Assembly: GCA_937928015.1 (NCBI GenBank)
Contig: CALFXA010000120.1
Location: 1-28,614, forward strand
DNA length: 28,614 bases
Source of the DNA: an uncultured Anaerolineales bacterium
Lineage (GTDB): Bacteria; Chloroflexota; Anaerolineae; Anaerolineales; Villigracilaceae
Direction of reading: 5' to 3'
Below, piece after piece: positions 11,857 through 23,658 of the stretch. A program made the position numbers and the translations under genes. The notes under the pieces are model-generated. The model had not been told where the DNA came from. It saw nothing but the letters and a program-made list of their open reading frames with translations, and ran no database searches. The number at the start of each line of letters is the position of its first letter. Position 1 is the stretch's first letter.

Positions 11857-13152
11857 TTATTTCTTGTCTTGCTCCACTACACGCAAAGCAATTTGATCCA
11901 CACAAAGGAGCAAAAGCAGCCAGGCGCTGAGATAGAGTTCGAGGCCGACAGACAGAGCGTGACGGGCGGGGGCCATGGCGTCTCCGTGCCAGGTGATGAA
12001 GAGATGCGGAAAGATCGGGAGGACGAGCAGGATGAAGGCCGCCCAAAGCGGATTACCTCTCCAGGCGCGGAACAGGATGGCAATCAATGCGGCGACGGTC
12101 ACCGCGACGAAAATCCACAAGATGAAACGGTCGGGATACAGGACGCGCTCGACGAAAGCGGGCAGGACGGGTTTGTACAGACGCGTGAAATAATTATCCA
12201 CATCGGGGAAAGCCACCAGCGGGCCGAACTGCTCAAAGGCCTCTGCCCCGCTATTCATTGGGTTAGAGGCCAGCCAACGCATGTAACAGGATTTCCCATG
12301 CGGATAGACCCAGGAGCGAAAGTCAGCCAGATCGGGGTCGTTGTAGAAGGCGCGCGATTGGCCATTGGCGAACTCGCCTTCGAGCGCCATTAGACCAGGG
12401 GTGACAACCAGGTCACAATTGGATTCGAAGAAATCGACCGCCTGCGGGTTGGGCAGGATGCGGCGTCCCATCACGTTGAGGAAGGGGAAGACCCAGCGCC
12501 CCCCCAGATCAGCATTGGCATTGTTGAGCAGGAAGATACTGACGAAGGCGGCGCTGAGGATCAAGGTGCGCGGTTCGGCCCAACGCAAGATGACCGCCAG
12601 AACAAGCAATCCCGCCAGCATGAGCAGCAGATAGGCATTGGTATCACGCGTGAAGGCCAGGAACAGACCGACGACGATCAACGCAAGGACGCGCTCGACG
12701 CGCCAGCCGCGTAGCAGCCAGAGTCCCGCGGCGAGGAACAGCACGAACCATGAGACCGAAAGCGCCTCGGTCAGCATGGTGAAGTCCCAACCTGCCAGAT
12801 GACGGACCAGACTCAAGGCGAAGATCAAACCGAAGGCGAACGGAGCCAGGCCACGGGTCCGCAGCGAAGCGGCCACCGACAGCCCGAGCAGGGTCCAGGC
12901 CAGGATGGAGAATCCAAGCTGAAGGGCGGCAGCGGTCGAGAAATCCTGACCTGCAATTTTCAGTAATAAGGGAAAAACCAGCGGACGCGAGTCACCCCAA
13001 AATTTTGCATCCAGCAGCAGCTGATTGGAAATGCGCAGATAGGCCTGGGTGTCGTCCATCACGCGCGGCTTGACCAGGGCGGGCTGCGCATAAAGCAGAC
13101 GCGCGGTCACATACAGCGCAAAGAGCGCAATGTAAAGGATGCGGCGGATCAT
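11857..13152 (-). CDS. Polytopic membrane protein, probable GT-C type glycosyltransferase
   Basis: A 431-residue protein dominated by hydrophobic helices, about ten by eye. A hydrophilic outer segment at roughly 220-330 contains [21 protein letters not shown]. An acidic MDD (residues 32-34) in the first outer loop after helix 1 fits the metal or sugar-phosphate site of GT-C enzymes that use lipid-linked sugars. No closer family is recognised. Its ATG overlaps the dtd stop (ATGA, 13149-13152), so it is the last gene of the selW/trpS/dtd operon. The functional link to those genes is unclear. Confidence 0.7.
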
Positions 13153-13586
13153 CGTTCGAGCCAGATGGTGACGGGGCCGTTGTTGTGGATCTCGACCTGC
13201 ATGTGCGCGCCGAACTGTCCCGTCTGGGTGGGAACGCCCTGCGCCCGCAGCAACTCGACGAAGCGCTCGACCAGCGGAGCGGCCACGTCGGGCAGGGCGG
13301 CGTCGGTGAAGGAGGGACGGCGGCCCTTGCGCGTATCGGCGTAGAGCGTGAACTGCGAGACGACGATGGCCTCCCCTTTCACGTCCAGCACGGAGAGGTT
13401 GGTCTTGCCCGCCTCGTCTTCGAAGATGCGCAGGTTGGCGATCTTATCGGCGAGGAAGGCGGCCTGCTCCTCGCCGTCGCCGTGACCGACGCCGAGCAAA
13501 ATCAACAGGCCAGGTCCGATGCTGGAAATGACCTGGCCTTCGACAGTGACGCTGGCTTTGGAAACTCGTTGGAGGATGGCGCGCAT
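13149..13586 (-). CDS. dtd: D-aminoacyl-tRNA deacylase
   Basis: Dtd removes D-amino acids, and mischarged glycine, from tRNA. The 145-residue product has the standard family length. It begins [17 protein letters not shown] and carries both catalytic signatures: SQFTLYAD at 77-84 and the cross-subunit NNGPVT at 135-140. The ATG at 13586 matches the family start; an upstream extension would run through a dispersed palindrome and is rejected. It lies between trpS and the membrane glycosyltransferase on the same strand. A translation-quality gene next to a tRNA synthetase is a sensible pairing. Confidence 0.95.
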
Positions 13587-13594
13587 AAGAAACA

Positions 13595-13614
13595 GGGCGG
13601 ACGGCCGTCCGCCC
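13595..13614. repeat. 20-bp perfect palindrome between trpS and dtd
   Basis: GGGCGGACGGCCGTCCGCCC is a perfect palindrome, flanked by CCTAC on one side, and sits in the 38-bp gap between trpS and dtd. Sequences of this kind are, as far as I know, widespread intergenic repeats in Anaerolineae-type genomes. It may also form an RNA hairpin that separates expression of the two genes. Confidence 0.6.
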
Positions 13615-13624
13615 CTACACAAAA

Positions 13625-14611
13625 TTACGGGAGTTGAATGGCCTCGCGGACCTCTTCCATCGTCTTTTCGGCGATGGCGCGGGCGCGCTTGGCGCCGTCA
13701 TCCAGCACGTCCTTGACGTACTGCGGCTTGGCGTCCAGTTCGGCGCGTTTGGCGCGGAAGGGTTCGAGGCTCTTGTTCATGTTGGCGGCCAGACGCTTCT
13801 TGCAGTCCACGCAGCCGAGGGCGGCGGTGCGACAGTCAGCATTGATCTGGGCCACTTCCTCTTCGGTGGAGAAAATCTTGTGCATCGAGAAGACGTTGCA
13901 CACGTCAGGGTTGCCCGGGTCATTGCGGCGCAGGCGTTGCGGATCGGTGACCATCTGCATGACGCGCTTTCCCGTCTCTTCGGGGGTGGACGCGATCTCG
14001 ATGTGGTTATTGAGGCTCTTGCCCATCTTCTCTTTGCCGTCGAGGCCGAGCACCTTGAGGATCTTGGTGTTCTTCATCTGCGGCTCGATCAGCACCTGCT
14101 TGCCATAGCGATAGTTGAACGAGCGCACGATCTCGCGCGCAAACTCAATATGCGGCGCCTGGTCGATACCGACGGGCACCACATCCGTTTTGTAGAGGAC
14201 GATGTCGGCGGTCATCAGCACGGGGTAACCGACCAACCCGTAGTTGATATTGTCAGGCTGCTGGCGCACTTTCTCCTTGAAGGTCGGCAGGTCGGTCAGC
14301 TTGCCAAGCGGCGTGACCATCGAGAGCAGGGTGTGAAGCTCCATCACCTGCGGCACATGCGACTGAATGAAGACAATCGACTCCTCGGGACGGATGCCCG
14401 CCGCGAGCCAGTCGAGCGCCATTTCGTAGGTATTCTGCTTGAGATTGAGGGTATCCTCCACCGTGGTCAGCGCATGGATGTCCACGATGCAGTACACACA
14501 CTCGTACTCATCCTGCAAGGCAACATAGTTCTGGATGGCGCCTAGGTAATTACCGAGATGCTGACGACCCGTGGGGCGGGCGCCTGAAAAAACACGTCCT
14601 TTTTTTGACAT
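13625..14611 (-). CDS. trpS: Tryptophanyl-tRNA synthetase with putative Fe-S cysteines
   Basis: TrpRS charges tRNA-Trp with tryptophan in the cytosol. The 328-residue protein is a class I synthetase of normal length, with the HIGH-type motif PTGRQHLGN at 13-21 and the KMSKS-type motif KMGKS at 195-199. Four cysteines, Cys238, Cys260, Cys267 and Cys270, are spaced C-x21-C-x6-C-x2-C. This is one residue from the C-x22-C-x6-C-x2-C pattern that binds a [4Fe-4S] cluster in Thermotoga maritima TrpRS, near the anticodon-binding region. The ATG at 14611 follows CGGAG. It lies 30 bases after the selenoprotein gene and probably shares its promoter. Confidence 0.95.
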
Positions 14612-14641: not shown

Positions 14642-14884
14642 CTACCCTTCGACCATCTTCCGCACCAGTCCGAGCACCTCGCCCGGCTCGGCGTGACGTT
14701 TCGTCTGCATCTTCGAGTACAGCAGTTGCCCATTGACGGTCACCTCGAAGCGGCCCCCTTCCGAGGGCACCAGCACGATCTTCTCGATGCTGTGTTCGTA
14801 CTCCTTGAGCAACTGGTCGGCCAGGCTCACGGCCCGGCTGGTGTAGTGTCAGACCGCGCAGTAAACGATCTCGATGGTCAGCAT
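14642..14884 (-). CDS. SelW/SelT/SelH (Rdx) family selenoprotein, in-frame TGA = selenocysteine
   Basis: Read through the TGA at 14851-14849, the gene encodes 80 residues starting MLTIEIVYCAVU, i.e. a C-x-x-U redox motif (Cys9, Sec12) right after the first beta-strand, exactly where Rdx proteins carry CxxC or CxxU. The rest fits the family: RAVSLADQLL, the strand IVLVPSEGGRFEVTVNG, and a C-terminal helix with LVRKMVEG. Members are small thioredoxin-like thiol oxidoreductases. Starting after the TGA would remove the first strand and the active site, so a 62-residue start at 14830 is unlikely. The ATG at 14884 has AAGGA upstream. A hairpin just after the TGA fits a bacterial SECIS. It leads an operon with trpS and dtd. 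SelA/B/C/D are not in this window. Confidence 0.87.
14820..14838 (-). promoter_or_regulatory. Bacterial SECIS element of the selenoprotein mRNA
   Basis: Ten bases after the UGA the RNA forms a 7-bp stem, GCCGGGC (14838-14832) with GCCUGGC (14826-14820), one pair being G-U. The apical loop CGUGA has G in its second position. The loop begins 17 bases after the UGA. This meets the published general features of bacterial SECIS elements: a short stem, a small loop with an early G, and a loop about 16-37 bases from the UGA. Confidence 0.75.
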
Positions 14885-14903
14885 GGGTAAATTTTCCTTT
14901 TCA

Positions 14904-14949
14904 TGTCATGGCGGGGTGCCTCGTCGCTCCGCTTCCGCACGCAATGACA
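14904..14949. repeat. Dispersed-repeat-like element in the selenoprotein leader
   Basis: A GC-rich 46-bp block is bounded by TGTCAT and ATGACA and reads TCATTGCG...GCGGAGCGACGAGGCA on the minus strand. This resembles the widespread family of intergenic repeats of the type GTCATTGCGAGCGAAGCGA. It lies inside the predicted 5' untranslated RNA of the selenoprotein operon. Family membership is from memory. Confidence 0.5.
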
Positions 14950-14969
14950 TTCGATTTAATTGTTAGAAA

Positions 14970-14993: not shown

Positions 14994-15022
14994 TTGCCTT
15001 GAGCCCGCATGGAGGCTATAAT
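14994..15022 (+). promoter_or_regulatory. Promoter of the FmdB-type zinc-ribbon gene
   Basis: TTGCCT (14994-14999) and a perfect TATAAT (15017-15022) are 17 bp apart. The predicted start, about 15029, rules out the upstream in-frame ATGs at 15009 and 15021 as start codons. Confidence 0.75.
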
Positions 15023-15059
15023 GCCCAACGTTCTAACCGTAAAGAAGGAGAAAGTCAGT

Positions 15060-15317
15060 ATGCCTGTTTATACCTACCGCTGTGAAAATTGTGGCGTCCA
15101 GTTCGAGCGCCAGCAGTCCTTCCAGGATGCCCCGCTCAAGACCTGCCCCGAGTGCCGCAAGAAGGCGCTCAAGAAGGTGATTACCCCCACCAAGATCATC
15201 TTCAAGGGTTCGGGCTTCTATGCCAACGACCACAAATCGCCCTCGGGCAGCGTCTCGCGCACCAGCAAGAGCGAGAGCAAGAAGGAAACTCCTTCTACAA
15301 GCGACTCGGCAGAATAG
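15060..15317 (+). CDS. FmdB family zinc-ribbon protein
   Basis: An 85-residue protein. The N-terminal zinc ribbon has CENC (Cys8, Cys11) and CPEC (Cys29, Cys32), with the family opening MPVYTYRCENCG and the following VITPTKIIFKGSGFYAND. The C-terminal third is a low-complexity Ser/Lys/Thr tail. FmdB-type proteins are putative regulators, so no firm role can be given. The ATG at 15060 follows AAGGAG, and longer starts precede the transcription start. It is monocistronic, with a strong promoter and terminator, and divergent from the selenoprotein operon. Confidence 0.92.
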   Translation: MPVYTYRCENCGVQFERQQSFQDAPLKTCPECRKKALKKVITPTKIIFKGSGFYANDHKSPSGSVSRTSKSESKKETPSTSDSAE

Positions 15318-17932: not shown

Positions 17933-17967
17933 AGGCAATTTCAATTCCTAGGAGGATACAAAATTTA

Positions 17968-18636
17968 TTATTTAATTATCGCCCTTAAGTCGTCAATCAA
18001 TTTATCAAAGGTTTTAACCTTAGTACTTTCTTCAATAGCATCATCGTTCAAAACATAACTTCCATCCAAATCAACCTCGACGATAGCTCTAGGTTTTTTG
18101 GGGGGGTTTATTGTCTTAAGAGTTTTATCCTCGTCGGGCGTAACAAAATAAACTTTAATGTGTTCGGTAACAGCATCCAAAGACAATTTCAATTTCCAGT
18201 ATCCTGTTTGAGCTATTCTCTCTCTCAAAGTAGTCTTTACCGAAAGAACAGCAATTACTTCATAATCTTGAGGGCTATAAATAATAATGTCCACATCAGG
18301 AAGGTGCGATCCAAATTCACCGTAATCAATAAGTAAATTTCTTTTCACCTTACTTAATGCCACGCCTAACTTTGCGCCACTTGCCCTTTCAAGCAAATTG
18401 CCATTTATAACCTCAAGCCCAAGGCTATGCACCTCATCCACAATAATATGCTCAACTAACTTTTCTAGGGATTTCCCTTTAAGGGGCTTCCATGATTGTT
18501 CAAAGTCTTTTCCCGTAAAAGCTTTTTTATGTTGAGCTTTTGCTTCTTCAAGTAATTCTGTTATATGGCGATAAGTATCACTTCCATATATCTGTTTCTT
18601 AGCCTCATAAAGAGGGATTATATCTTGCGGCTTCAT
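17968..18636 (-). CDS. Type II restriction endonuclease, PD-(D/E)XK, CCGG-family-like
   Basis: A 222-residue protein coupled to the methyltransferase by a 4-base ATGA overlap (18633-18636). The nuclease core reads LPDVDIIIYS (Pro113, Asp114) then VLSVK (Lys134), a PD...(x)xK arrangement. Directly after comes TTLRERIAQ, like the K-x-(S/T)-L-R-x-(D/E)-R signature by which enzymes of the NgoMIV/Bse634I/BsaWI group recognise a CCGG core. The N-terminal helix with SLEKLVEHIIVDE may supply the extra acidic residue. I infer a CCGG-centred target, uncertain in its flanking bases. With the methyltransferase it probably acts as an addiction and defence module for the element. Confidence 0.8.
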   Translation of the reverse strand: MKPQDIIPLYEAKKQIYGSDTYRHITELLEEAKAQHKKAFTGKDFEQSWKPLKGKSLEKLVEHIIVDEVHSLGLEVINGNLLERASGAKLGVALSKVKRNLLIDYGEFGSHLPDVDIIIYSPQDYEVIAVLSVKTTLRERIAQTGYWKLKLSLDAVTEHIKVYFVTPDEDKTLKTINPPKKPRAIVEVDLDGSYVLNDDAIEESTKVKTFDKLIDDLRAIIK

Positions 18637-19937
18637 AACTTCTCCATTATCAGAATATATTCTGTAGGGTAAGCTAATTTCATCTTTTTATCTGTGCTCT
18701 TTACAAATTGACCATTATTAATATCGCGTGTAGAGGGCAATATTTTAGATGGAATCTCTCTATGAATGATTTTATTCGTCTTAAAGCCTATATTCTCAAA
18801 TTGTTCTTGAAACACTTCTGCATTGAGGATATCAACACCTTGAAATTGTGTATTTCCGATAACTACACAAGCCTTACCGCCAATTTTCAAAACTCGCCTA
18901 GCTTCCTCAAACGTCTCAAGCATATCAGCAAAATAATATTTTACTTCTCTACCTTTCTTATTATCGCCTAGTTTTTGAATAGTAGTATTTGCTAAGTTAC
19001 TTTTTAAGTCTAATTTTTCTCTATTTTTATATGCGCTACCAATAAATTTCTTTCTAAACTCTGGCAATTCATCTAAATAACCAAACCAAAGTGACGGTAA
19101 TTGGTGCAGGTCAGCATACTCATAAGACGTCACATAAGGTGGGCTAGTTACAATTAATTGCGCTCTATTTTCCTCACAAGGCAATCTCCTTGAGTCGCCG
19201 CAGCTAATGATCCTAAATGTTTCGATGTTTTCTTTAACTTTTTGGGTCAGCATATTATTAAACTCATCATGTCTTCTTATCATTTTCTTGGCCTGAGCTA
19301 AAAATAACGCTAATGGATCATAAATTTTCTTATTTTGGTCTCGTGTTGGCTTAATGCTTTTTTGCATCCATATCGAACTTGACTTTAATATTTGAGCAAA
19401 TGCCACCATATAAAAATTCTGTATGTCTTTATCCTCAATTTCCAATATCCTAGAGAAAATAATTGCCAGCTTCTCTTTCTGTTGAGGTAAAAACCAGTAG
19501 TCGATTCGCTCATTTTTGGGAATCAATTCCATTGCTTGCTTTAATGCTTGTTTATTGTCGGCATCCATTCTTCCACGTAAATCCGACTCCATTTTTTTAA
19601 ATTCTTGCAGTAATCTAATAGCCTGAATCGGGGTAGTTTTTACTTTTGCGACTAGATATGCAATATCATTTATATCTGTTCCTACTCCTACCCTATTCCT
19701 TACAATAGCCTCAACAATAGTTGTACCACTACCCATAAATGGATCAACCACAACATCTCCCTCATTACTATATTCACTAATTAACCGCGCCGCAAGTTGA
19801 GGGATAAATTTAGCAGGATACGTATAGTAGCCATGTGTAATATAGGCAGTATCTTTTACAGTTTTATCAGAAAATGACCAAGAATAATCTATTGACATTC
19901 CTGAAAATTTATTTTCATTTAATAATGAAGGTTTCAT
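18633..19937 (-). CDS. Site-specific DNA methyltransferase (probably N4-cytosine)
   Basis: A 434-residue amino-methyltransferase. The AdoMet motif I DPFMGSGTT lies at 65-73 and the catalytic motif IV TSPPY at 264-268. SPPY rather than DPPY or NPPY favours N4-methylcytosine. Motif I comes before motif IV, separated by a long insert likely to hold the target-recognition region. GKACVVIGNTQFQG near 355-368 looks like a later core strand. The start at 19937 follows the TAG of the small upstream ORF by 4 bases, and its stop overlaps the restriction gene. Its expected role is to protect host DNA from the coupled enzyme. Confidence 0.92.
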   Translation of the reverse strand: MKPSLLNENKFSGMSIDYSWSFSDKTVKDTAYITHGYYTYPAKFIPQLAARLISEYSNEGDVVVDPFMGSGTTIVEAIVRNRVGVGTDINDIAYLVAKVKTTPIQAIRLLQEFKKMESDLRGRMDADNKQALKQAMELIPKNERIDYWFLPQQKEKLAIIFSRILEIEDKDIQNFYMVAFAQILKSSSIWMQKSIKPTRDQNKKIYDPLALFLAQAKKMIRRHDEFNNMLTQKVKENIETFRIISCGDSRRLPCEENRAQLIVTSPPYVTSYEYADLHQLPSLWFGYLDELPEFRKKFIGSAYKNREKLDLKSNLANTTIQKLGDNKKGREVKYYFADMLETFEEARRVLKIGGKACVVIGNTQFQGVDILNAEVFQEQFENIGFKTNKIIHREIPSKILPSTRDINNGQFVKSTDKKMKLAYPTEYILIMEKL

Positions 19938-19941
19938 ATCA

Positions 19942-20166
19942 CTATGCGCCTTTATCTGGGTATTCTGATACTAGCAAAGTATCAACAAAAACATTGTTTA
20001 GAAATAAATCTACTGCCAATTCGCCGTTCAAATGTTTCCTTACTTTCCAATTACCTTTAACATACATTTTCGCTATTAATTTATCGACAGCATCATCAAA
20101 TGATGATGCCCGAATTGTGCAATCTAATCTATCATCATCTTGCGGGATAAAATGATATTTCATCAT
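19942..20166 (-). CDS. Small hypothetical protein between the repressor and the methyltransferase
   Basis: A 74-residue acidic protein starting MMKYHFIPQDDDRLDC and ending VSEYPDKGA. It is predicted soluble and has no recognisable motif. Its stop lies 4 bases before the methyltransferase start, so it belongs to the same transcript. It could be a control protein of the restriction-modification system, but it has no visible helix-turn-helix. Either of the first two ATGs could be used, and the ribosome site is weak. Confidence 0.6.
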   Translation of the reverse strand: MMKYHFIPQDDDRLDCTIRASSFDDAVDKLIAKMYVKGNWKVRKHLNGELAVDLFLNNVFVDTLLVSEYPDKGA

Positions 20167-20188
20167 CTTTTAGATACCAACCGAAGTA

Positions 20189-20677
20189 CTAATTTTTGCC
20201 ACGTTTTTCACGCGATTTCTTTACTTCTTCCTCATGTTCTAACTTAGCAATCGTATATGGAGTCTGCTCAACAACAAAAGCATCAATATCAAACTTTCCA
20301 ATGGATTTTACGATATCAATTATCAATCTTCTAAAATAATCTGAAACAATGTCATCGCGGAAGTTTAATAATAACTCGTTTTCTAATGGGGTTAAGTCTT
20401 CCCCTTTTATCTCATGGTAAAGATATTCGGGAAGGAAATATGCTAACGGTTTTTTTAGGTAATAAGCCAGTAATGTGAAAGTACTAGTATTAGGCTCGTT
20501 TTTTCCGTTTTCAATATCCGAAAGCGTAGCACGTCTTAAGTAAACAAGTTGGGCCAGTTTCTCCTGACTATATCCTGCTTCCTCGCGGGCGGATCTAATT
20601 TTTTCCCCCATAAATAGCGTGAATTTATTAGGGCGCTCCTCAGATTCTGCAAAAAAATCACGGATGAAATCTAACAT
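20189..20677 (-). CDS. XRE-family transcriptional repressor of the element
   Basis: A 162-residue regulator with an HTH_3 domain at about 24-80: MGEKIRSAREEAGYSQEKLAQ, then RRATLSDIENGKNEPN, the usual recognition-helix context. A helical C-terminal half follows, and the protein ends in a basic tail (KKSREKRGKN). The ATG at 20677 has AGGAG upstream; a longer start at 20728 would lie inside the divergent promoter and its operators. Two palindromes at 20708-20743 cover the divergent promoter and are its likely binding sites. It should keep the Rep/integrase arm silent in the integrated state and may also control the R-M arm. Confidence 0.88.
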   Translation of the reverse strand: MLDFIRDFFAESEERPNKFTLFMGEKIRSAREEAGYSQEKLAQLVYLRRATLSDIENGKNEPNTSTFTLLAYYLKKPLAYFLPEYLYHEIKGEDLTPLENELLLNFRDDIVSDYFRRLIIDIVKSIGKFDIDAFVVEQTPYTIAKLEHEEEVKKSREKRGKN

Positions 20678-20696
20678 GAGGGGAAAACTCCTAACC

Positions 20697-20743
20697 TTGA
20701 CAAAGTCGTACGTTTTTCGTACAATCACGTACGAAATTCGTAC
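20697..20743 (+). promoter_or_regulatory. Rep/integrase promoter with two palindromic operators
   Basis: TTGACA (20697-20702) and TACAAT (20720-20725) are 17 bp apart, a near-consensus promoter. Operator 1, GTACG-TTTTT-CGTAC (20708-20722), covers the spacer and part of the -10. Operator 2, GTACGAAATTCGTAC (20729-20743), covers the start site. Their centres are 21 bp apart, two helical turns, suggesting cooperative binding by the divergent XRE repressor. Confidence 0.8.
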
Positions 20744-20800
20744 AACCCGTTGGTAATCTTGTTTGTTAATGATACTTGTTTTTCATAGTCATTACAAGAG

Positions 20801-20953
20801 TAAGCCGCCCGTTGATACCTTAAGCCGCCCGACGAAGCCGTTCTTATTGCCCTCGCAGAGGCTCATTGTCAAGGCTGGTGAGCGAAGCGGCGCAAGCCAG
20901 GAAGCCTTGACAATGAGAGCGAGGGCGATAGGCTTCGCACGGCGGGCGGCTAA
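20801..20953 (+). other. Large GC-rich inverted repeat with iteron-like boxes; candidate origin or structured leader RNA
   Basis: Nested arms pair across this block: AGCCGCCCG (20823-20831) with CGGGCGGCT (20943-20951), CGAAGCC (20833-20839) with GGCTTCG (20931-20937), GCCCTCGC (20849-20856) with GCGAGGGC (20919-20926), and CTCATTGTCAAGGCT (20862-20876) with AGCCTTGACAATGAG (20903-20917). An inner CTGG/CCAG closes the top. GCCGCCCG also occurs at 20804-20811, 20824-20831 and 21182-21189. The block is untranslated, very GC-rich against the AT-rich element, and lies between the promoter and rep, the usual place of a rolling-circle origin. Confidence 0.7.
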
Positions 20954-20973
20954 GTAGCAAGATCGGAGAGCAT

Positions 20974-21231
20974 ATGGAAGAAAAAATTATATTCACTCAT
21001 AAAGGCATTTATGGTCGCGTCAATGTCACCATGCCTCTACCCATGAAAACAACCATGCTAGCTTGGGCAAAGGGGGCAGGCATGAAAAAGGCTGAATTCC
21101 TACGGTTAGCCCTTACTACGGGCTTCCTAGTGCTTTCTAAGGGCATTTCTAGCCCTACTGACGAATGCGAGGCGGCGCAGGGCCGCCCGACCGCACGTGC
21201 GGAGGACGGACGGCCTGCGCCAAGCGCATAA
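20974..21231 (+). CDS. Small protein, possibly a ribbon-helix-helix DNA-binding factor
   Basis: An 85-residue protein. Residues 15-55 read VNVTMPLPMKTTMLAWAKGAGMKKAEFLRLALTTGF, a strand followed by two helices as in CopG/Arc-type proteins, which often control copy number or assist a relaxase. The last 20 or so residues (from CEAAQGRPTARAEDG) are encoded by a GC-rich palindromic stretch and look like a tail imposed by the DNA structure. The ATG at 20974 follows CGGAGAG. It is the first gene of the Rep/integrase operon. The fold is inferred from the local pattern only. Confidence 0.65.
   Translation: MEEKIIFTHKGIYGRVNVTMPLPMKTTMLAWAKGAGMKKAEFLRLALTTGFLVLSKGISSPTDECEAAQGRPTARAEDGRPAPSA
21174..21221 (+). 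other. GC-rich nested hairpin at the end of the small DNA-binding gene
   Basis: Outer arms GGCGCAGGGCCG (21174-21185) and CGGCCTGCGCC (21211-21221) enclose the 12-bp palindrome CCGCACGTGCGG (21191-21202). It stands out from the AT-rich flanks and repeats the GCCGCCCG box of the upstream structure. It may be part of the origin or an attenuator before rep. Confidence 0.6.
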
Positions 21232-21261
21232 GGGCTTGTCTTAATTACAACAAAGTTTATT

Positions 21262-21282
21262 TATTTATCTTGAGGATAAATA
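21262..21282 (+). promoter_or_regulatory. Hairpin overlapping the rep ribosome-binding site
   Basis: TATTTATC (21262-21269) pairs with GATAAATA (21275-21282), leaving the loop TTGAG. The Shine-Dalgarno GAGG (21272-21275) lies in the loop and at the base of the right arm, and the stem ends one base before the rep ATG. Such a fold could hold down translation of the initiator. Confidence 0.6.
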
Positions 21283-21283
21283 C

Positions 21284-22039
21284 ATGGCAAACCACTATAC
21301 AATCCTTTTGAACCGAAAAACAAATCAGGTAATGGTCTTGGATAATTTCAAGGTGCGTTACAACCGTATGAGGCGGAGAATAGCAGGGTGGGTAGAAATC
21401 ATGCGTTCCTATCCTGATATTCAGTTCGTCATGGTTACTCTAACCTATGCTCCTGAGCATGATTGGCAACCTAATCACATCAGGGAATTCATGCTGTCTT
21501 ATCGCAAGGTTCTAGGGGAAAATCTGCTGGCTTACGCGTGGGTTGCTGAGTTACAAAAACGCGGGGCAGTTCATTATCACGTTATGTTAGTCGTTCCAAA
21601 TATGCTCACGGTAGGGGATGACCTGCCCTATCCAGACGAGGCGGGGTTATGGCCCTATGGATTTACACGGGTAGAAATTGCTAGAACACCCTTTTACCTT
21701 ATCACTTATTTGGGCAAAGAATATCAAAAAGACTTTTCTAATTTCCCTAAAGGGATACGGGTTTTTGCTGTCCACGTCAAGGACAAAGTAAAAAAGCTAT
21801 CTTTGCGCTATCAGTCTTTGAAGGTGTATCAAAAAGAGTTTGTTGACGAGTTCGGCTGGTCTGAGTTGAATTCCCTTTGTAAACTCCGCAAGGACATCAA
21901 CACTGAGCTAAATTACAACTGGCAAATTCAAGCATTTGAACGCAAAAAAGAAGATGCTATCGAGCAGGCACAATCCAAAGAGGCTCTTGGTTATAAATGG
22001 GCTGGCCGTAGCATGTTCGTGGGGGTGGAAAATGGCTGA
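21284..22039 (+). CDS. rep: HUH-type rolling-circle replication initiator (G2P/plasmid Rep-like)
   Basis: A 251-residue HUH endonuclease. Motif 1 is FVMVTLTYA at 48-56, the metal-binding motif HYH lies at 97-99 within GAVHYHVMLVV, a WPYGFTRVE block follows at 123-131, and the tyrosine motif YLGKEYQK is at 142-149, with Tyr142 the likely nicking residue. Such proteins nick one strand at an origin and start rolling-circle replication; close forms occur in small plasmids and filamentous phages. A hairpin covers its ribosome site. The next gene overlaps its end by 8 bases. It probably copies the excised circle, and could also process the element for transfer by a helper. Confidence 0.88.
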   Translation: MANHYTILLNRKTNQVMVLDNFKVRYNRMRRRIAGWVEIMRSYPDIQFVMVTLTYAPEHDWQPNHIREFMLSYRKVLGENLLAYAWVAELQKRGAVHYHVMLVVPNMLTVGDDLPYPDEAGLWPYGFTRVEIARTPFYLITYLGKEYQKDFSNFPKGIRVFAVHVKDKVKKLSLRYQSLKVYQKEFVDEFGWSELNSLCKLRKDINTELNYNWQIQAFERKKEDAIEQAQSKEALGYKWAGRSMFVGVENG

Positions 22040-22445
22040 TTCTCAAATCGTTCTTCGTGGGCGTCTGAATGGAGTACAGCGTAACAGGCTAAAGGGTCTG
22101 TTCGATATGCTTTACTCCCCTAGAGAGTTGGCCGAAGAAATCGGGATAAACACGGATCAAATTTACAGCGTCTATGTGCCTTTGGGCTGTCCAGAAGAAC
22201 GGGACGGAAAAAATCACATCCTGATTAATGGTAAGATTTTTGCGGAGTGGTATAGCAGGGTTTACGTCAAAATCAAACTCAACCAGAATGAGACGTTTTG
22301 CAAAACCTGTAAAAAGGGTGTTGAGATTTACAAGCCTAAGAAAAAGAAAAAGGCTGATTTGGTCTATGTACTGAGTGTATGCCCACATTGCGGGCGCAAC
22401 CTGACAAAGATTATCAGTGCAAAGCGAGGGGACAATGATAAATAA
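22032..22445 (+). CDS. HTH plus C-terminal zinc-ribbon protein, probable excisionase or accessory factor
   Basis: A 137-residue protein. Residues 28-75 (LYSPRELAEEIGINTDQIYSVYV ... ILINGKIFAEWY) have the shape of a MerR/excisionase-type helix-turn-helix with wing. The C-terminal part has two cysteine pairs, CKTC (90-93) and CPHC (117-120), for a zinc ribbon, joined by a lysine-rich stretch. It overlaps the end of rep by 8 bases and the start of the integrase by 11 bases, so it is made with both. The best guess is a recombination directionality factor. The zinc ribbon on such a protein is unusual. Confidence 0.75.
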   Translation: MADSQIVLRGRLNGVQRNRLKGLFDMLYSPRELAEEIGINTDQIYSVYVPLGCPEERDGKNHILINGKIFAEWYSRVYVKIKLNQNETFCKTCKKGVEIYKPKKKKKADLVYVLSVCPHCGRNLTKIISAKRGDNDK

Positions 22446-23505
22446 AAAGAATTGGCTACTTATGAAAAAGTATCTGGACTATCGTTTTATGGTAGACCAG
22501 ATTAGTAAAGGCTCTTTGAACAAAGAGCAAACTCACATACGCTATGTTCTCGAATGGGCGCAAGAAATTTCATTCAAAAACGCCCCAACAATTAGACCAA
22601 CCTTTCCAGAATACTTGCGGACAAGCCGTCTGGATGGGGGCAAGGGACAATTATCCCCTGTTTATATCAAAAAGGCTTTGGCAACTGCCCGCTTATTTTT
22701 CTCTTGGCTCTCTGACAACGAAGTTGAGGGAAAACGGATTAAACAGTCTTGGATAAAGACCATCAAGATAAAAAGGCTATCAGAGCCACCAAAGACAAAA
22801 GAGGCTGTCACTCTGGAAGAAGCCCTAAGCATGGCCGCCTATCCTGCCAATACTCTTATGCAAAGACGCGCAAGGGCTGCGGCTGTGTTTCTTTATTTGT
22901 CAGGCATGAGGATTGGGGCTTTTGTATCTTTACCTATGCAAGCCGTAGACATTCCTAGCCGAAAGATTTTTCAGTACCCTAATCTTGGTGTTAGGACTAA
23001 AAACAGTAAGTACGGGATAACCTATCTATTGGATATTCCCGAATTGCTAAAGGTGGTTCAAGATTGGGACAATGAGATCAGACCATTATTACCGCCTAGT
23101 GGCTTTTGGTTTGCTCCCCTATCGCCTGAGACAGGGCAAATAGATACAAATGTTTCTTCAATCGGGGAACATCGCGTTTCATTGGCAAGAAGAAATATCA
23201 AAGATTGGTTAGATCAAGCTGGTTTGCCTTATCACTCTCCCCATAAATTCAGGCATGGTCATATTCACTACGGATTAGCCTATGCTAAGAGTATGGCCGA
23301 TTTCAAAGCCGTAAGTATGAACGCTATGCACTCCAGCATGAAAATCACAGATGAGTTTTATTCTGTGCTGAATGATACCGAGATGAAAAGCCGCATCAAC
23401 GCATTGGGCAAGCAGGACAATAACCCACAAAAACAGGAAACAAACGAGGCTGAATTACTCATCAGGGAGTTTTTAGACTGGAAGAAGAAACAGGAAAAAG
23501 AATAA
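22435..23505 (+). CDS. int: Tyrosine recombinase/integrase of the element
   Basis: A 356-residue integrase with all catalytic residues visible: Arg159 in SGMRIG, Lys189 in RTKNSKYG, His270 and Arg273 in HKFRHGH, His299 in MHSSMK, and the nucleophile Tyr309 in DEFYSVL. The N-terminal part has the core-binding helices (about 15-110). The ATG at 22435 follows GAGGGG and overlaps the upstream gene. It lies next to the right attachment repeat and is followed by a terminator. It should catalyse integration into, and excision from, the tRNA-Asn 3' end. The protein appears full length and undamaged. Confidence 0.95.
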   Translation: MINKKNWLLMKKYLDYRFMVDQISKGSLNKEQTHIRYVLEWAQEISFKNAPTIRPTFPEYLRTSRLDGGKGQLSPVYIKKALATARLFFSWLSDNEVEGKRIKQSWIKTIKIKRLSEPPKTKEAVTLEEALSMAAYPANTLMQRRARAAAVFLYLSGMRIGAFVSLPMQAVDIPSRKIFQYPNLGVRTKNSKYGITYLLDIPELLKVVQDWDNEIRPLLPPSGFWFAPLSPETGQIDTNVSSIGEHRVSLARRNIKDWLDQAGLPYHSPHKFRHGHIHYGLAYAKSMADFKAVSMNAMHSSMKITDEFYSVLNDTEMKSRINALGKQDNNPQKQETNEAELLIREFLDWKKKQEKE

Positions 23506-23539
23506 AAAACTTACTGCTATACGAAAAAATTGGAAACAA

Positions 23540-23576
23540 AAATTGCCTCCGCTAAAAAGCTAGAGGCAATTTTTTT
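23540..23576 (+). terminator. Intrinsic terminator after the integrase
   Basis: AAATTGCCTC (23540-23549) pairs with GAGGCAATTT (23563-23572) and is followed by a T-run to 23576. A small GCT/AGC pair lies within the loop. It protects the tRNA-Asn region from transcripts of the element. Confidence 0.85.
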
Positions 23577-23583
23577 GGTCAAA

Positions 23584-23620
23584 GGCTCCTGGCCGAGGAC
23601 TTGAACCTCGAACCTAGCGG
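23584..23620 (-). repeat. Right attachment site (attR) within tRNA-Asn
   Basis: This 37-bp copy is identical to 17896-17932 and forms the T-arm, acceptor 3' strand and part of the anticodon-variable region of the complete tRNA-Asn. The identity stops at 23621, inside the anticodon stem, so the crossover lies somewhere in these 37 bp. Confidence 0.93.
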
Positions 23621-23658
23621 TTAACAGCCGCGCGCTCTGCCGATTGAGCTAGCCAGGA
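23586..23658 (-). tRNA. tRNA-Asn (anticodon GTT), integration target
   Basis: The minus strand gives TCCTGGC pairing with GCCAGGA, a D-arm GCTC...GAGC, the anticodon loop CTGTTAA with anticodon GTT, the T-loop TTCAAGT and discriminator G. The gene is complete because the element restores the 3' half on integration. CCA is not encoded. Confidence 0.95.

Follow-up and report, generated by a model that had tools for sequence, protein, structure and literature searches.

The window, that is, the whole 28,614-nucleotide stretch of DNA from an uncultured Chloroflexi bacterium that was analysed here, almost certainly holds an intact selenoprotein gene: a redox selW with SelB-directed selenocysteine (Sec) insertion at residue 12, heading a trpS-dtd cluster. 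In the mechanism that we propose, SelB with Sec-tRNA(Sec) would recognise a hairpin just past an in-frame UGA, and Sec would be inserted at residue 12 of SelW. The product, a member of the SelW/Rdx family, would be small, thioredoxin-like and of the CxxU type, with a thiol/selenol redox role; its gene would lead a conserved cluster in which trpS of the iron-sulfur type and dtd follow. We document the reading frame and the protein family, and show that the TGA is conserved, that relatives have the Sec machinery and that the hairpin is under selection; from these sequence data we infer Sec insertion in the window's own host.

Results

The selW-like gene occupies positions 14642..14884 of the (-) strand. 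Its frame, read from 14884 to 14642, is MLTIEIVYCAV-TGA-HYTSRAVSL...MVEG-TAG, with 80 codons, a TAG stop and a single in-frame TGA at codon 12 (14849..14851, (-) strand, read from 14851 to 14849), which we read as Sec. A weak Shine-Dalgarno-like AAGGAA (14894..14899, (-) strand) could be read upstream of the ATG. The region before the gene, at 14900-14960 (TCATTGCGTGCGGAAGCGGAGCGACGAGG...), has the look of a dispersed repeat, and similar but different pieces stand at that place in two relatives (L001 and L002).

An earlier note on this DNA had proposed that the frame runs through one TGA into a protein of the Rdx family, and the profile searches agreed with it. The read-through protein matched Pfam Rdx (PF10262) end to end, at E 1e-20 over profile positions 1-74 of 74. 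Searched by itself, the portion past the TGA gave 3.4e-14 and covered positions 12-74, so positions 1-11 are supplied by the stretch before the TGA. The match to TIGR02174 (CXXU_selWTH) was above the cut-off, at 60.5 bits against 34.2, and the protein fell under the cut-off of the Campylobacter-named equivalog profile NF041051 (80.9 against 88). The TGA is the U of CxxU, the second redox position of C-A-V-U, where the note had placed it. An AlphaFold2 model, built with Cys in place of Sec, reached a pLDDT of 93.5, and a Foldseek search with this model returned SelW-family structures as its top matches, with mouse SelW (2npb) at rank 23. The protein is thus predicted to have the thioredoxin-like Rdx fold. 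It resembles the Cys-type bacterial Rdx structures 2fa8, 2obk, 3dex and 2p0g in fold (query TM-score 0.85-0.90) and by sequence matches, but in the two alignments shown, those of 2fa8 and 2p0g, these have CxxC where the window has CxxU. Despite its broken look, the gene is very probably an intact selW-like redox gene, and SelW most likely works as a small redox protein of the selenol/thiol kind, its redox activity being presumed.

SelW-like CxxU selenoproteins are a known family, of which the present gene is a new member. In the available text of a 2026 review, CxxU proteins of PF10262 are predicted with high confidence to be selenoproteins (PMC13188914), and a 2006 count, as given in the part of the source at hand, stood at 10 SelW-like selenoproteins and 3 selenoproteins from Chloroflexi (PMC1794560). 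The window's protein is like the bacterial SELENOW-like selenoproteins (PF10262) in family, in fold, in the CxxU that ends strand 1 and in having one Sec; it differs from the known ones in its Chloroflexi lineage and in standing ahead of an iron-sulfur trpS and a dtd gene.

A genome scan gave 12 relatives, 10 of them Chloroflexi and 2 Planctomycetota. The same CxxTGA, with the TGA at codon 12 of selW, was present in 12/12 of their loci, and the peptide before it was conserved, which argues that the in-frame TGA is not a matter of chance. The conserved peptide also answers the doubt raised in the earlier note that close homologues might all lack the sequence upstream of the TGA. A sample of 201 genomes from the order to which the closest relative belongs gave a selW match in 113, and an in-frame TGA lay inside 112 of these 113, its codon position being checked for the 30 matches that have loci. 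The 113th match begins at a contig end, after residue 14. A second stop was found inside three matches of the order sample (G563, G479 and G412). When 72 selW genes, including 3 duplicates, were extracted by a scan for TGA, TGC or TGT at the site, all 72 were found, 69 with TGA and 3 with TGT (Cys). In an alignment of 13 SelW proteins, a further 13 columns were invariant besides Cys 9 and residue 12. In a class sample of 396 genomes, 179 had an Rdx gene; among the matches listed, nine had no stop and the rest had one TGA. The genes in these conservation counts, as in the hairpin counts below, are related and not independent. Second SelW-like copies were seen in three genomes (L203, L204 and L205, in G440, G458 and G465); their match starts only at residue 15-16 and they have no CxxU; a stop codon stands near the expected end of that motif.

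The Sec machinery of the host was deduced from the genomes of the 12 relatives, the closest of which for comparison, L001, shares 88-90% nucleotide identity with the window over four longer aligned stretches. Matches over the cut-off were found for selA in 12/12, and for selB, selC and selD in 11/12 each; the twelfth selB (G007) is split at contig ends, G004 gave no selC match over the cut-off and G011 no such selD match. The earlier proposal that the host decodes UGA as Sec gains support from this set of genes, and the host would be expected to have the same machinery. An in-frame TGA was present within 10 of the 11 relatives' selD genes (L049-L052 and further selD places), so that selD itself is a probable selenoprotein gene in ten of the twelve relatives. 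In the class sample, selA was found at E<1e-60 in 165/179 genomes with Rdx versus 153/217 without. Incomplete assemblies are a likely reason why 14 of the 179 Rdx genomes have no strong selA match; one genome without such a match, G338, has two Rdx genes, both CxxC and without TGA, a form that fits its place among them.

We then considered the RNA directly after the UGA. Folding under the published constraints gave a bacterial-SECIS-type hairpin at 14820..14838 ((-) strand), with a 7-bp stem and the loop CGUGA at 14831-14827, 17 nt past the UGA. It falls inside the bSECIS limits stated in the review (PMC13188914, Fig. 2 legend), namely a loop of 3-9 nt with G within its first two positions, a stem of 4-16 bp, a spacing of 16-37 nt and an energy of at most -7.5 kcal/mol. 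A hairpin of this model was present in 57 of 66 distinct genes, versus 16.5 (sd 3.4) expected from synonymous recoding, with 9/66 outside the model; in a control stretch 54 nt downstream, 18/66 had one versus 16.1 expected. Codon usage showed the same constraint. At codon +8, Ser was encoded by AGY in 42/42 genes (locus background 0.35) and Arg by AGG in 15/15 (locus background 0.08), which is the choice that the hairpin needs, and the remaining 9/66 genes had Gly. These data establish selection on a SECIS-type hairpin at the RNA level right after the TGA. Folding energy as such was uninformative: in the window the energy after the UGA was unremarkable against dinucleotide shuffles (z -0.07), and against synonymous recoding the mean z of -1.01 (67 genes) was no clear signal beside -0.72 (67 genes), -0.71 (67) and 0.04 (36) at three control stretches. 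The position of the hairpin varied with gene context. The distance from the UGA to its apex is 17 nt in 17/37 trpS/dtd-linked genes, namely the window's and 16 others, and 22 nt in 7/37; in most unlinked genes it is 22 nt (25/30). From these sequences, the hairpin has apparently shifted along the coding sequence while the protein alignment stayed constant.

Downstream of selW, on the (-) strand, stand trpS (13625..14611), assigned by PF00579, by the motif C-x21-C-x6-C-x2-C at residues 238-270 and by its best PDB match, and dtd (13149..13586), the third gene of the cluster, encoding a D-aminoacyl-tRNA deacylase and assigned by PF02580 and the conserved order, with an ATG as its probable start. 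On the other side of selW lies a divergent zinc-ribbon gene (15009..15317, (+) strand; PF09723). As trpS starts 30 nt past the selW stop and the order is conserved, selW, trpS and dtd probably form one transcript. Between trpS and dtd, at 13594-13615 on the coding strand, we noted a 9-pair GC-rich hairpin that looks like a terminator or attenuator; a scan for terminator-like hairpins gave 1 site versus 1.7 expected by chance.

The earlier note had called a selenoprotein leading trpS and dtd an unusual arrangement, a view in need of revision, as selW-trpS-dtd is the usual order among the closer relatives. One cultured bacterium with this gene order is Longilinea arvoryzae (L009). We defined a TrpRS of the window's type at E<1e-130, the order samples being 201 genomes for selW and 202 for TrpRS. 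Such a TrpRS was present in 107 order-sample genomes; 85 had both genes, 22 trpS only, 28 selW only and 66 neither, so that the presence of the two is associated, in counts uncorrected for kinship. In 83 of the 85 genomes with both, trpS lay 7-230 nt (median 29) downstream of selW on the same strand; the exceptions were G426, in which the two are unlinked, and G543, in which contig ends lie at or close to both genes. In the loci that we read, selW stood directly before an iron-sulfur trpS down to 54% selW identity. Five loci (L008, L109-L111 and L116) have selW followed by dtd with no trpS match between, and the more divergent loci of the class (selW 38-56% identical) show no trpS or dtd match in the ~0.6-1.5 kb covered downstream of selW.

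The neighbouring TrpRS is predicted, from its four-cysteine motif, to be of the iron-sulfur type. Its best PDB match by sequence was the [4Fe-4S] TrpRS of Thermotoga maritima (2g36), whose motif is given as C-x(21-24)-C-x6-C-x2-C (PMC2954223, available text); the window TrpRS shares this pattern, with x21 where T. maritima has x22. The available text on the T. maritima enzyme mentions no adjoining selenoprotein (PMC2954223). The motif was present in 51/51 trpS examined next to selW, the window's included, in 18/20 window-type trpS without selW, and in 0/20 of the other TrpRS type. In L188 and L189, whose iron-sulfur-type TrpRS has no adjoining selW, Asp replaces the fourth cluster cysteine (CVDD for CVDC). 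We considered whether cluster cysteines tend to be lost where selW is missing and set this idea aside, as the difference (2/20 versus 0/51, p 0.08) is too weak for use. An unlinked set of 30 genomes comprised 27 class-sample genomes with a TGA-containing Rdx, whose kinship to the window's order is not given, two Planctomycetota and G338 with its Cys-type Rdx. A TrpRS match was found in 28/30 of them, and the best match had the four-cysteine motif in 1/28, on which ground a universal link between SelW and iron-sulfur TrpRS was rejected.

Discussion

If the TGA were a true stop or a sequencing error, the gene would be a pseudogene or would start at a GTG or ATG after the TGA and encode 62 residues. 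Database entries have just this shape: of 940 matches to selW, 112 of the 120 listed are 59-63 aa long, as the earlier note had foreseen for the usual annotation. We nevertheless regard this reading as extremely improbable, since the identical TGA recurs in all the related loci and nearly all the extracted genes, a conserved peptide with CxxU precedes it, and RNA-level selection acts directly past it; truncation would moreover remove strand 1 as well as the redox motif from a fold that was modelled with high confidence. Hardly more credible is a UGA read as tryptophan, whether by a changed genetic code or by a tRNA-Trp that reads UGA, with which a trpS downstream of selW would fit. Trp does stand at residue 12 in seven full-length database entries (P0002-P0006, P0011 and P0012), but these are most likely an annotation artefact, short contigs presumably translated with TGA as Trp. 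TGA ends 9 of the 27 listed genes of the window, and the same 27 use 115 TGG codons; the site itself, in the 72 genes found by the scan for TGA, TGC or TGT, is TGA or TGT and never TGG. For these reasons read-through as Trp was rejected; the position is also the one that holds the redox Sec or Cys in this family, and the Sec machinery of the relatives and the SECIS-type hairpin likewise speak against it. With Sec at this codon, automatic gene calling trims selW to about 62 residues or shows tryptophan in place of Sec, and a selenoprotein of more than half of the order genomes sampled (113/201) is therefore mis-annotated in the entries seen.

The conserved order of selW and trpS hints at a shared job. 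Gene order suggests the hypothesis that in this Chloroflexi order SelW serves the adjoining [4Fe-4S] TrpRS as its dedicated redox partner; it would reduce or protect the cluster or its cysteines and so tie tryptophan charging to selenium and redox state, and the UGA might even make trpS expression selenium-dependent. We consider this proposal unlikely as a whole. Neutral synteny of housekeeping genes, with no functional meaning for SelW, is by a little the better bet than not. A dtd match was found in the fetched stretch of 16/20 type-A loci without selW, in 13 within ~200 nt of trpS, and the five selW-dtd loci with no trpS match between, together with the 22 order genomes that have trpS without selW and the 28 with the reverse, point the same way. 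The more divergent SelW genomes, moreover, almost all have the other type of TrpRS, so SelW needs no iron-sulfur TrpRS in general and a dedicated partnership can be put forward as a hypothesis only. Against neutrality stand the near-constant adjacency of the two genes where both occur, their associated presence (again uncorrected for kinship), and the 30 closest order loci, in which trpS was kept downstream in 27 while the zinc-ribbon gene was on the other side in only 15. According to the available text of the 2026 review, it is unknown exactly what SelW-like and co-located selenoproteins do (PMC13188914), and that of a 2010 paper described the part played by the iron-sulfur cluster of TrpRS as unclear (PMC2954223). 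The conserved pair offers a concrete partner to test for SelW and for the TrpRS cluster. A literature search, from whose coverage subscription journals mostly fell outside, found no paper on a Chloroflexi selW cluster with an iron-sulfur trpS.

Elsewhere in the window, about 5.6 kb (17933-23583) beside a tRNA-Asn gene (23584-23658) are missing from L001. This stretch contains an integrase-like gene (22417-23505), along with what we take, from the look of their sequences, to be a DNA methylase, a restriction-type gene and a replication initiator, and it is probably an integrated mobile island.
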